A DNA stretch of 44,300 nucleotides from Candidatus Flavonifractor merdigallinarum. Lineage in GTDB: Bacteria > Bacillota > Clostridia > Oscillospirales > Oscillospiraceae. This document shows positions 1-38,789 of the stretch, one piece after another. A program made the translations under genes and the position numbers. Within the stretch, counting starts at the first letter, position 1. Each line of letters opens with the position of its first letter. Location of the stretch: positions 1 through 44,300 of the forward strand of contig DXDX01000216.1 in assembly GCA_019115265.1 (NCBI GenBank), given 5' to 3'. The notes beneath the pieces were generated by a model that saw only the letters and a program-made list of their open reading frames with translations, ran no database searches and was not told the DNA's origin.

Positions 1-151
1 GGCCGCCCTTTTGGAGGGGAGTGGAGAGGGGAACGAGAAGTTCCCCTCTCCGCCTTTTCTTTCCCCGGTTTCTTTTCCGCGAAAAGAAATCGGGCGCTGT
101 CCGCGTAGGACGCCCGCGCGGCGAGCGCAAACATCCCCCGCCTTGGGCGGG
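1..151. repeat. Right part of a dispersed hairpin-rich repeat (copy 1, truncated by window start)
   Basis: Near-identical to 26398..26540 and 38640..38789; ends in GCCCGCGCGGCGAGCGCAAACATCCCC followed by a CCCGCC-TTG-GGCGGG hairpin. Confidence 0.9.
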
Positions 152-4783: not shown

Positions 4784-6091
4784 ATGGATAAAATCAGAGT
4801 TGTTCACTACATTAACAACTTCTTCGCCGGCATCGGCGGCGAGGAAAAGGCCGATATTCCCCCCGAGATCCGTCCCGGCACCGTAGGCCCCGGCCTGGCG
4901 CTGCAGCAGGGTCTGGGCGATGAGTTTGAGGTCGTTGCCACCGCCATCTGCGGCGACAGCCACTTCGGCGCCAATCTGGAAGAGGATACCGCCAAGCTCC
5001 TGGACATGATCGCCGAGTATAAGCCCCAGCTCTTTGTGGCTGGTCCCGCGTTCAACGCCGGCCGTTATGGCGTGGCCTGCGGCACCATGGCCAAGGCTGT
5101 GGAGGAGAAGCTGGGCATCCCCGTCGTCACCGGTATGTATGTGGAGAACCCCGGCGTTGACATGTTCCGCAAGGACCTGTTCATCATCGCCACCGGCGAC
5201 TCCGCCGCTGACATGCGCAAGTCCATGCCCAAGATGGCCGCTCTGGCCAAGAAGCTGGCCAAGGGCGAGGAAGTGCTGGGTCCCTCGGTGGAAGGGTATC
5301 ATGAGCGGGGCATCCGTGTCAACTACTTCGCCGATGTCCGCGGCTCCGAGCGCGGCATCCAGATGCTGCTGAAGAAGATGGCCAAGCAGCCCTTCGAGAC
5401 CGAGTATCCCATGCCTGTCTTTGACCGTGTGCCTCCCGCCCCTCCGGTCACCGATATGAAGCACGCCAAGATCGCGGTGGTTACCTCCGGCGGTATCGTG
5501 CCTCAGGGCAACCCCGACCACATCGAGTCCTCCTCCGCCACCAAGTGGGGCCTGTACTCCATCGAGGGTATGGACCACATGGACAAGAAGGACTTCATGA
5601 CCATCCATGGCGGCTACGACCGCGCGTTCGTCACCGAGGACCCCGACCTGGTTGTGCCTCTGGACGTGCTGCGTGAGCTGGAGAAGGAAGGCGAGTTCGG
5701 CGAGCTGGCCAACTACTTCATCACCACCACCGGTACCGGTACTTCCACCGGCAACGCCAAGCGTTTCGGCGAGGAGTTCGTGCCCAAGCTTCTGGAGGAT
5801 AACATTACCGCGGTTATCCTCACCTCCACGTGAGGCACCTGCACGCGTTGCGGTGCAACGATGGTAAAAGAAATTGAGCGCGCTGGTATCCCCGTGGTTC
5901 ATATGTGTACGGTTGTGCCTATCTCCAAGACGATCGGTGCCAACCGCATCATCCCCGCCATCGGTATCCCCTATCCTCTGGGCGATCCCCATCTGGGCGA
6001 GGAGGGCAGCTACAAGCTGCGCATGAAGCTGGTTAAGCGGGCCCTGAAGGCGCTCCAGACCCCCGTGGACGGCCAGACTGTGTTTGAGTAA
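4784..6091 (+). CDS. Selenocysteine-containing reductase component B subunit, GrdB/GrdF/GrdH-like (in-frame UGA at 5831..5833)
   Basis: ORF 4784..5833 (ends ILTST) continues in frame after TGA as GTCTRCGATMVKEIERAGIPVVHMCTVVPIS; SECIS-like hairpin follows the UGA. Confidence 0.93.
5831..5860 (+). promoter_or_regulatory. UGA Sec codon and SECIS-like hairpin
   Basis: TGAGGCACCTGCACGCGTTGCGGTGCAACG; GCACC pairs with GGTGC; nearly identical element in the second grdB. Confidence 0.75.
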
Positions 6092-13201: not shown

Positions 13202-14506
13202 TTAGTCGAAGATGGTCTGCTCTTCCACAGGAGTCTGGAAGGCGTTGAGGGCCTTCTCCACCAGCTTATAGCGCAGCTCGAACTCCTCCTCGTGGGTGAG
13301 AGCCGGGTTGCCCAGGGGGTGGGGAATGGCGATGGTGGGCACAATCCGGTTGGCGCCCACGGTCATGGAAATGGGGGTGACGGTGCACATGTGAACCACA
13401 GTGACACCGGCGCGCTCGATCTCTTTTACCATCGTTGCACCGCAACGAGTGCAGGTGCCTCACGTGGAGGTCAGGATGGCGGCCTTAATGCCAGCATCCC
13501 GCAGCTCCTTGCCGATGGCCTCACCGAACTTCTTGGCGCTGGCCACGGCAGTGCCGTTGCCGACGGTGGTGAAGAAGTAGGGATAGATGCCGCCGATCTT
13601 GCCTTCCTTCTCCATCTTACGCAGCACGTCCACGGGCAGGACGCGGTCGGGGTCCTCGTTGGCGTAGACCGGATCGTAGCCGCCGTGAGCGGTCTCGTGG
13701 TCAGCGGAAGTCAGATCCTCAAAGCCGCTGATGTCGTAACGGCCAAACTTGGAGGCGGAGGAGGACTCAATGTGGTCGGGGTTGCCCTTGGGCACGATAC
13801 CACCGGAGGTCACCAGAGCGATGGTGGTGTGAGCCAGGTCGGTGATGGCAGCACCGGGAGCCACGCGGTCAAAGGAGGGCATGGGGAACTCGGTGGTGTA
13901 GGGCTTGCCGGCCAGCTTGTTGAGCAGCATCTTCACAGCACGGGTGGAGCCGCGCTCCTGCTCGAAGAAGTTGACGCGCAGGCCGTTGGGCATGTAGCCC
14001 TCCTCGGCGGAGGCGCCGATCTTCTCGCCCTTGGCCAGCTTCAGGGCCAGGGAAGCCATCTTGGGGGCAGCGTCACGCATGCCGGCGGCGCTGTTCTTGG
14101 TGGCGATGATGTAGACCTTGGTCTTGAACATGTCGGCGCCGGGGTTCTCCTCGTACATACCGGTGACGACAGGCAGTTTCAGCTCGTCCTTCACGGCAGC
14201 GGCCACGGTGCCGCAGGCCACGCCGTAACGGCCGGCGTTGAAGGCGGGGCCGCAGATGACCACATCGGGCTTCGCGGCGGAAATCATGTCCAGGACGGTC
14301 TTCTTGGCCACGTCCAGGTTCTCGTTGAAGTAGGAGTCACCGCAGATCACGGTGCCCACGATCTCGGCCTCGCCCTTGAACGCGGCGTTCAGAGCCAGAC
14401 CGGGACCCACAGCGCCCTCCCGATACTCGGGGGCGTAGTCGGCCTTCTCTTCGCCGCCGATCTGGGCGAAGAACTGGTTGATATAATGAACAACTCTCAG
14501 ACTCAT
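13202..14506 (-). CDS. grdB: Glycine reductase component B selenoprotein subunit GrdB (in-frame UGA at 13460..13462)
   Basis: ORFs 14506..13460 and 13432..13202 are in frame: ILTST-U-GTCTRCGATMVKEIERAGVTVVHMC; SECIS-like hairpin follows. Confidence 0.93.
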
Positions 14507-16221: not shown

Positions 16222-16277
16222 AAAACAGAGTACGGTTCAGGATACATCACATGACTTGTATCCGCCCCGTACTCTGT
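16222..16277 (-). terminator. Expression-platform terminator of the glycine riboswitch
   Basis: Minus strand CAGAGTACGG..GGATACA...TGTATC..CCGTACTCTGTTTTTA. Confidence 0.85.
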
Positions 16278-16465
16278 AATAGACCTGAGAGTTTCCCCCC
16301 GTGCAGGGGGTTGCACCTTCGGTGCCATGCTGACGCATGGGCTTTTCAGAGCTCTGTCCGGCTGCGGTACGGTTACCTGAGAAATTCCAGCTCCACTCGG
16401 CATCATGAAGCCTTTATACCTTCGGTGTCCGGGTCCAAATGGCCCGGCGCTCTCCCGCAGCTTTC
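16268..16465 (-). ncRNA. Tandem glycine riboswitch
   Basis: Two tandem modules on the minus strand, each with a GAGAGC/CAGAGC start, CACCGAAGG and CTCAGGT; upstream of grdX-grdE-grdB. Confidence 0.92.
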
Positions 16466-16573
16466 ATCCAGTTATATTTGTTTTTTCGATGGCTGTATTA
16501 TAGCATATCGTCTTTTTGAATACAACCCCTCAAAATTTTTACGTCACGATTATTTAATTTTGCCGATTTTTCT

Positions 16574-17539: not shown

Positions 17540-17666
17540 CTCTTCCACTCCCCTTTCCGTCCGTCCAGTATACCACAGTTTTGGACCTGGGGTACTCTTT
17601 TTTCCCGCCTTGCAAGTTCTGGAGGAATATAGTATAATGAGTTCAAATTCAAACTGCATCGTTCTG

Positions 17667-17760
17667 CACTCCGAGCAAACGCGCCTACGGGCTGACTGCC
17701 TATGGCGCCGCGCCGATGGGTGGCACGGGAAACCGGGCCGCCTTCCGCTTTTGAAAAGGA
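17667..17760 (+). ncRNA. Moco (molybdenum cofactor) RNA motif / riboswitch, copy 1
   Basis: CTCCGAG..GCCTACGGGCT..GCCGATGGGTGGCACGGGAAACCGGGCCGCCTTCCG, upstream of moe/moa genes and followed by a terminator. Confidence 0.82.
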
Positions 17761-17808
17761 GTCGCTTCCCAACGGGGGTATCATACCCCCGCTGTTTCCA
17801 CACCTGGA

Positions 17809-23313: not shown

Positions 23314-23329
23314 TCCACCCAAGACCCAA

Positions 23330-23415
23330 AACTTCGAGTCTGTCCGCCTACGGCCTTTTGAGCTAGGGCGGCGGACCAATGGGTCGGCCCGGAAACAGGC
23401 CGGCCTACCGAATTT
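23330..23415 (+). ncRNA. Moco RNA motif, copy 2
   Basis: TTCGAG..CCGCCTACGG..GGCGGACCAATGGGTCGGCCCGGAAACAGGCCGGCCTACCG aligns with copy 1; just upstream of modA. Confidence 0.75.
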
Positions 23416-23434
23416 GTAAAGGAGTTTTATCCCC

Positions 23435-24313
23435 ATGAAAAAAATGCTGTCTCTCGCCCTGGCCCTCTCTCTGGGCGTCAGTCTCACCGCCTGCGGCGGT
23501 ACCGCCTCCCAGCCCTCTCAGGCTCCCGCCTCCCAGCAGCCCTCCCCAACTATCTCCGCTGAGAGCGGTGGGGAGGCGGTGGAGCTGACTGTCTTTGCCG
23601 CGGCCTCCATGGAGGCCACCCTCACCGAGATTGCCGACCTCTACAAAGAGGTGGAGCCCAATGTGACCCTCACCTTTACCTTTGACTCTTCGGGCACCCT
23701 CAAGACTCAGATTGAAGAGGGCGCGCCCTGTGATATTTTCATCTCCGCCGCTCAGAAGCAGATGAACCAGCTGGACAGCGCCGACACCACCGGCACCAAT
23801 GAGGGCGGTCTGGACTTTGTGTACTCGGACACACGCATCAATCTGGTGGAAAACAAGGTGGTGCTGGCCGTCCCGGACGACAACCTCAAGGACATTCAGT
23901 CCTTCCAGGATTTGGCCACCGACAAGCTCTCCCTGCTGTGTCTGGGCAACGACGATGTGCCGGTGGGGGCCTACTCCCTCCAGATTCTGGACACCCTGGG
24001 CATTGACATCGCCGGCCTGGAGGCGGACGGCAAAGTGACCTACGCCTCTAACGTCTCCGAAGTGGCCAACCAGGTGAAGGAGGGTGCGGTAGACTGCGGC
24101 ATCATCTACGCCACCGACGCCTTTACCTATAAACTCAATGTGGTGGACCAGGCCACTGCCGATATGTGCGACCAGGTCATCTACCCCGCCGCCGTGATGA
24201 AGAGCGGCACCGAGGGCTCCAAGGATGCCGCCCAGGCCTTTTTGGACTACCTCCACACCGACGCTGACGCGGTAGCGGTACTGGAGGGGGTGGGCTTTAC
24301 AGTGCTGAACTGA
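23435..24313 (+). CDS. modA: Molybdate ABC transporter substrate-binding protein ModA
   Basis: Lipoprotein signal (LTACGG), FAAASMEATLTEIADLYK, DSSGTLKTQIEEGAPCDIFISA. Confidence 0.9.
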   Translation: MKKMLSLALALSLGVSLTACGGTASQPSQAPASQQPSPTISAESGGEAVELTVFAAASMEATLTEIADLYKEVEPNVTLTFTFDSSGTLKTQIEEGAPCDIFISAAQKQMNQLDSADTTGTNEGGLDFVYSDTRINLVENKVVLAVPDDNLKDIQSFQDLATDKLSLLCLGNDDVPVGAYSLQILDTLGIDIAGLEADGKVTYASNVSEVANQVKEGAVDCGIIYATDAFTYKLNVVDQATADMCDQVIYPAAVMKSGTEGSKDAAQAFLDYLHTDADAVAVLEGVGFTVLN

Positions 24314-26100: not shown

Positions 26101-26540
26101 TGTGTGCTCGCCGCACGGGCCGCCTGCTCGGCGGGAGCACCGCTTTCTTTGCCAAAGAAAGCGGTGGGAAAGAAAGCGCAGAGGGGACGCTGCCCCCTCT
26201 GCACTCCCCCCAATGCGCAACCCGGCTAAAGTTCCACTGCGGTGGGATTGCGCAAGCTCGGTACCATTTAAACCAGGCTTTCCGCCTATGAGGAAAGCGT
26301 TGTACTGCCTTGCAATACAGGTGACCCCTATATGGGAAAGTCTGTTGCCACAGAACAAGCTATAAGTCAGCACCCCTAAATTGGGCGGCCCCCTAAAAAG
26401 GCCGCCCTTTTGGAGGGGAGTGGAGAGGGGAACGAGAAGTTCCCCTCTCCGTCTTTTCTTTCCCCGGTTTCTTTTCTGCGAAAAGAAATCGGGCGCTGTC
26501 TGCGTAGGACGCCCGCGCGGCGAGCGCAAACATCCCCCAG
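26101..26540. repeat. Dispersed hairpin-rich repeat, copy 2
   Basis: Near-identical to 38340..38779; inverted arms; starts just after the modC stop codon. Confidence 0.9.
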
Positions 26541-26563
26541 CGTTGGGAACGCTCTCTGTAAGA

Positions 26564-26607
26564 CGCAAAAAGGGACGTTGCAGAATTCACCCTTCTGCAA
26601 CGTCCCT
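26564..26607 (-). terminator. Rho-independent terminator of the homocysteine synthase-like gene
   Basis: Minus strand GGGACGTTGCAG..CTGCAACGTCCC followed by TTTTT. Confidence 0.88.
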
Positions 26608-26623
26608 GTCTGTTTCACTGTGC

Positions 26624-38320: not shown

Positions 38321-38789
38321 CCCAGCCAAGCCGGGAAATTTTGCGCTCGCCGCGCGGGCCGCTTACCCAGCGGGGGCACCGCTTTCTTTGCAAAGAAAGC
38401 GGTGGGAAAGAAAGCGCAGAGGGGGGCGCTGCCCCCTCTGCACTCCCCCCAATGCGCATCCGGGCTAAAGTTCCACTGCGGTGGAATTTCCCAAGCTCGG
38501 CGCCATTTGAACGGAGCGTTCCGCCTATGAGGAAAGTGTTGTATTGCCATGCAAGACAGGTAACCTCGATTTGGGAAAGTCTGTTGCCACAGAAAAAGCC
38601 ATAAATTTGCACCCACAAATGGGGCGGCCCCCGAAAAAGGCCGCCCTTTTGGAGGGGAGTGGAGAGGGGAACGAGAAGTTCCCCTCTCCGCCTTTTCTTT
38701 TCCCGGTTTCTTTTCTGCGAAAAGAAATCGGGCACCACCCGCGTAGGGTGCCCGCGCGGCGAGCGCAAACATCCCCCGGCTTGGCTGGG
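38321..38789. repeat. Dispersed hairpin-rich repeat, copy 3 (most complete inverted ends)
   Basis: Exact terminal inverted repeats CCCAGCCAAGCCGGG/CCCGGCTTGGCTGGG and TTTGCGCTCGCCGCGCGGGC/GCCCGCGCGGCGAGCGCAAA. Confidence 0.92.

Follow-up and report, generated by a model that had tools for sequence, protein, structure and literature searches.

The window analysed here comprises all 44,300 bases of one contig in a Flavonifractor-group draft genome, a MAG of 2.58 Mb in 219 contigs that is 82% complete. It contains two copies in full, and a third cut off by the contig end, of a non-coding element of roughly 450 bases, of which the whole genome holds approximately 195 arms (approximately 100 copies). 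Other structured elements also lie in the window: two molybdenum/tungsten cofactor riboswitches (17657-17777 and 23320-23440, both on the plus strand), two glycine riboswitch aptamers side by side (16272-16467, minus strand), and two SECIS elements (5834-5871, plus strand; 13422-13459, minus strand) directly 3' of GRDB-family selenoprotein frames, which terminate at what is presumably the selenocysteine codon.

The element consists of two inverted arms flanking a species-specific centre. From its outer end inward, each arm runs through a chain of hairpins: hp1 with a T-run, hp2, hp3, the long hairpin hp4, the linker GGGAAAGAAAG, hp5, and the motif ACTCCCC. The neighbouring units hp2 (N4-TC-GCC-N4'-R-GGC) and hp3 (N4-TR-N3-N4'-R-N3'-C) share the form N4-TN-N3-N4'-R-N3', in which N4 and N4' form the stem and the loop bases N3 pair with N3', which follows just downstream. 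The two pairings are thus interleaved, as in a pseudoknot. Simultaneous formation of both stems of a unit would be sterically tight, with a one-base linker across a 4-pair stem, and the two may be alternative hairpins.

Copy 3 (38321-38789, plus strand) is a complete element with a centre, both outermost hairpins and inverted arms that are 74-76% complementary. Direct reading places hp1 (CCCAGCCAAGCCGGG followed by AAATTTT), which has the shape of an inward terminator, at 38321-38342; across the elements, windows at hp1 fold more stably (-8.7 kcal/mol) than controls lying farther outward (-5.1 kcal/mol). The next units are hp2 (38343-38359; GCGC-TC-GCC-GCGC-G-GGC), with stem allele GCGC and a loop GCC complementary to GGC, and hp3 (38360-38377; CGCT-TA-CCC-AGCG-G-GGG-C), with stem allele CGCT and a loop CCC complementary to GGG. 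The long hairpin hp4 (CACCGCTTTCTTTG/CAAAGAAAGCGGTG) occupies 38377-38404, and the linker GGGAAAGAAAG with hp5 (ACTCCCCCC) occupies 38404-38450, all on the plus strand; the order of linker and hp5 is the same in other genera. Beyond the centre (38451-38621, no strand assigned) lies a terminator-like hairpin, GGGCGGCC/GGCCGCCC then TTTT (38622-38650, plus strand, direct reading), which is conserved in Flavonifractor sp. An92. The right arm (38651-38789) reads inward on the minus strand and contains hp5' (38661-38689), hp4' (38702-38732), hp3' (near 38733-38750), hp2' (38754-38766) and hp1' (38775-38789).

The initial annotation had described a dispersed repeat in three copies, and all its coordinates check. 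However, the copy at 1-151 (plus strand) is a right arm alone, the contig beginning inside the element, and copy 2 (26104-26553, plus strand) lacks the left outermost hairpin. In copy 2, hp2 starts 4 bases past a stop codon, the right hp1' (AGCGTT-GGG-AACGCT) lies at 26539-26553, and the ordinary terminator of a neighbouring PLP-enzyme gene is retained beside it (26566-26612, minus strand). The stem reported to differ among the copies reads GGGC-GCT-GTCC-GCGTA-GGAC-GCCC in copy 1 (92-115), GTCT/GGAC with one G-T pair in copy 2 (26491-26514), and ACCC/GGGT in copy 3 (38730-38753), exactly as proposed; the related left-arm stems CCGCT/AGCGG and CCGCC/GGCGG and two long hairpins are likewise present.

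We searched related genomes with the exact arm pattern TCGCCNNNNRGGCNNNNTRNNCNNNNRGNNC. It matches 195 times in the source genome (reversed pattern, 3), 79 times in An92, a genome that is 99% complete, and 0-14 times in eight other genus members (reversed pattern 0-3 in these and An92). Both An92 and Pseudoflavonifractor gallinarum belong to the GTDB genus set of the source genome. Forty long copies could be aligned, with identities of 80-100%. Within a species the arm cores are far more alike (medians 0.94-0.97) than the centre (0.84-0.88); the centre differs between species, and that of An92 is shorter by approximately 75 bases. The plan recurs in other species with hairpins of different sequence, e.g., hp4 CCAGGGTCCTTTC/GAAAGGACCCTGG. 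Many contigs of the draft begin inside the element (e.g., G000 C12, C18, C52 and C109), which indicates that the repeat fragments the assembly, so that the true copy number may be higher; the breakage of the draft genome is thereby partly explained. Reduced forms also exist. By sequence reading, P. gallinarum has a single-arm copy between regulator-like and MutS-like genes (L093, about 2560-2650), and a mini-copy (L197, G000:C78:11003-11094), in which hp2-hp3 arms stand head to head, resembles a deletion between two hp4 hairpins.

The three copies in the window are insufficient to establish covariation, but the claim is true on the wider set of copies. The hp3 stem is perfectly paired in 89/100 arms of the source genome, 44/44 of An92 and 17/18 of other species (shuffle means approximately 24, 16 and 6). 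The pairing of the hp3 loop with its flank, which the initial annotation overlooked, is perfect in 93/100 and 43/44 arms of the first two sets. Among chance matches to the pattern outside the genus pair, the corresponding numbers are 0/31 for the stem and 1/31 for the loop. For hp2, the stem variants GCGC, GTCC, GTGC and GCCC each occur with the matching partner, and the stem is perfect in 82/92, 65/70 and 15/16 unique arms of the three sets. Pairs with letters fixed by the search pattern (TCGCC, GGC, and the last loop base with its partner) were excluded as evidence. When 465 column pairs were ranked with correction for column background, all five variable true pairs fell within the top nine. 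For 31 arms drawn from eight genomes, 99.3% of cells are paired as the structure requires, a share that drops to 34-47% when the structure is slid by one to three columns, and 83 cells carry double changes compared with 27 after shuffling, a control that leaves relatedness among arms in place. Double changes occur in two of the three hp3 loop pairs, while the hp2 loop pairing is invariant. The arms thus have interleaved stems with compensatory changes, as in an H-type pseudoknot.

In An92, copies whose centres share at least 97% identity disagree at 2.8 of 4 stem variants, the same as distant copies. The stem variants are unrelated to centre similarity and do not follow copy relatedness, and the copies are mosaic; this comparison rests on the bin for An92 and on that for 94-97% identity, the high-identity bin of the source genome being dominated by the short copy L167 and left out. 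Stem mismatches at neutral rates, which would have spoken against the initial annotation, are not what the wider arm set contains. That the structure is preserved by folding and not by letters is strongly supported. The original reading, that selection acts on structure, in RNA or in single-stranded DNA, and not on protein, is supported: the covariation is strong, and we rejected protein coding, as the three overlapping ORFs match no Pfam family. A mirror-repeat or triplex reading of the TTTCTTT tracts was also dropped, being inconsistent across species.

Are the two ends of an element independent of each other? Compared with within-species shuffles of the oriented arms, elements whose two ends match in their hp2 variant are too rare (9 of 60; 18.0 expected, p-value 0.005), and so are those whose ends match in their hp3 variant (6 of 60; 12.7 expected, p-value 0.009). 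In DNA nearest-neighbour folding of native whole elements, end-to-end pairing (0.61) prevails over local pairing (0.01-0.16), and giving both ends identical letters in silico raises the predicted end-to-end pairing from 0.61 to 0.997. Since native folding favours the end-to-end form, local folding would require separately exposed arms, protein, or the interleaved pairing that the folding does not model. Avoidance of a rod, or counter-selection of long perfect palindromes in replication, would both explain why the ends differ.

The genomic setting is strongly biased. The elements lie in 29 convergent, 25 tandem and 0 divergent positions, compared with 10, 72 and 41 for background gaps of at least 60 bases between genes, as called by a simple codon-usage finder. 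Almost all copies directly follow stop codons; the median distance to the gene is 37 bases where a stop codon faces the element and about 130 where a start does. The orthologous site beside copy 2 is empty in 8/8 relatives, and those at the two genes flanking copy 3 are empty in 9/9 and 8/8. Target-site duplication is not seen (longest shared flank word 5.95, compared with 5.92 shuffled; n=58), although very short ones are possible.

Database searches place the element in no known family. No Rfam covariance model matches above its gathering score, a lenient search gave chance-level matches only, and the phage and plasmid collections contain no match. We found no description of the repeat in the literature, the search reaching few subscription journals. 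Nor did a transposase sharing the ends, which the initial annotation suggested looking for, come to light. The Y1 transposase (PF01797) is absent from the two copy-richest genomes, the source genome and An92, and present in some copy-poor relatives; the source genome has no reverse transcriptase. We rejected both enzymes as the mobiliser, since they are absent from the source genome and do not track copy number in the genus. Among the matches listed, no widely spaced arm pair enclosing a gene was noticed. As the MAG is 82% complete, the enzyme gene could be missing from it.

We give about even chances to the interpretation that this is a non-autonomous interspersed mobile element working like a REPIN or a palindromic MITE, its folded strand recognised by a putative enzyme. 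The element has many copies, empty sites in relatives, no coding capacity, no target duplication, local hairpin arms with interleaved loop-to-flank pairing, and placement after stop codons. Mobility is most likely, judging from a comparison of sites between species. The two inverted arms flank a centre that changes freely, and an enzyme acting in trans might recognise each arm as a folded single strand, by its shape and by the constant letters of loop and linker, which would leave the stem letters free to change in step. Differing end variants would fold locally better because two identical arms would pair into a rod, and copies with different end variants may move better or survive longer. 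Insertion after genes would be tolerated because the outermost hairpins and T-runs can act as inward terminators.

The terminator-like ends also invite an unlikely but serious alternative, in which the repeat is an RNA element of gene 3' ends whose transcribed arms terminate, protect or process mRNAs, selection acting on RNA after insertion. The position of the copies just past stop codons and never between divergent genes would suit it. So would the outer hairpins: T-runs follow the inward-pointing hairpins, and in 74/116 ends the final 6 bases include 3 T or more. Moreover, the two genes around copy 3 have no other terminator in the downstream sequence examined, while several orthologs of one of them, an ArsC-like gene, have their own. 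However, G-T mismatches in the stems are not in excess of A-C mismatches (18 vs 13, p-value 0.47), so we rejected strand bias as a sign of RNA folding; copy 3 contains no promoter-like site, and a consensus terminator scan of it misses hp1. The scrambling of stem variants among near-identical copies is also unexpected of a conserved RNA gene. The same enrichment between convergent genes, and the same terminator-like hairpins, could indicate that the host retains the element as a portable terminator working in both directions, or as a domain boundary, with the hairpins serving only to terminate transcription or to bind gyrase or nucleoid proteins. We give this only a small probability: arm matches range from 0 to 195 among species of one genus, unlike a host-essential function, and a simple terminator has no need of loop-to-flank covariation.

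Slightly less probable again is an origin of the covariation in mutation, by template switching in short inverted repeats and gene conversion among approximately 200 arms. The copies are indeed mosaic, and the mini-copy points to deletion between arms. Yet a stem of 3-4 bases offers very little length for correction of this kind, and inverted copying yields A-B-B'-A' and not the interleaved A-B-A'-B'. Different ends are favoured rather than homogenised, and the plan persists in other species whose hairpins have different sequences.

The arm covariance model, whose E-values are rough, matches 41/201 genomes and 30/106 genera of Oscillospiraceae. In 18 genomes among the matches listed, the order is mostly hp4, a GAAAGAA-like linker, hp5 and an AATCCC-like tail; these related arms of other genera (L233-L250) keep the hp4-linker-hp5 order with different letters. 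Outside the genus, the exact hp2-hp3 pattern gives only chance matches. The matches in other genera may all belong to one mobile family, or they may be hairpin repeats of a broader class. It is a tentative proposal, to which we give somewhat less than an even chance, that a single family of mobile elements is identified by its fold and not by its letters, with tandem interleaved units at each end, stem variants that re-assort between copies and tend to be unlike at the two ends, letting each arm fold by itself, an undescribed structure-specific enzyme, and a spread through Oscillospiraceae. Should the relatives in approximately 30 genera belong to the family of this element, a widespread feature of gut Firmicutes genomes that now goes unannotated would gain a name. 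If the mobile-element reading is true, the copies form a natural data set, with many replicates, on a fold kept while its letters change.

Pneumococcal BOX, RUP and SPRITE are short, interspersed, structured and modular repeats, mostly near gene 3' ends, with SPRITE being terminator-like (PMC3049150). The element resembles these bacterial MITEs in all these respects, and has the terminal inverted repeats and non-coding nature of a MITE without its target-site duplication; it differs in sequence and architecture, and no partner insertion sequence was identified. With IS200/IS605-type ends it shares the lack of target duplication and, as a proposed analogy, recognition of a folded single strand. 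However, no such transposase was found in the source genome or An92, and the pairing is interleaved within one hairpin unit, whereas in IS200/IS605 it joins guide to cleavage site. REPINs are inverted doublets of REP sequences in Pseudomonas and Escherichia, for which compensatory changes have been reported (PMC3116915). Like REPINs and BIMEs, the element has inverted, structured (palindromic) ends around a variable spacer and is extragenic, high in copy number and non-autonomous (PMC3116915). Strict membership fails on the tag and the transposase: neither GTAG nor CGTC occurs at either end in any of 58 elements, within the 12 bases before hp2 that were scanned, and the copy-richest genomes lack Y1. 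The arms of approximately 130 bases with four or five hairpins and loop-to-flank pairing are also unlike REPINs, and so is the behaviour of the stem variants, which re-assort from copy to copy and tend to be unlike at the two ends of an element. The authors of the REPIN study set a clover fold, recognised by the transposase, against a rod fold (PMC3116915). If our reading is true, the element offers a testable case for the clover fold, not the rod fold, as the target of the mobilising enzyme.
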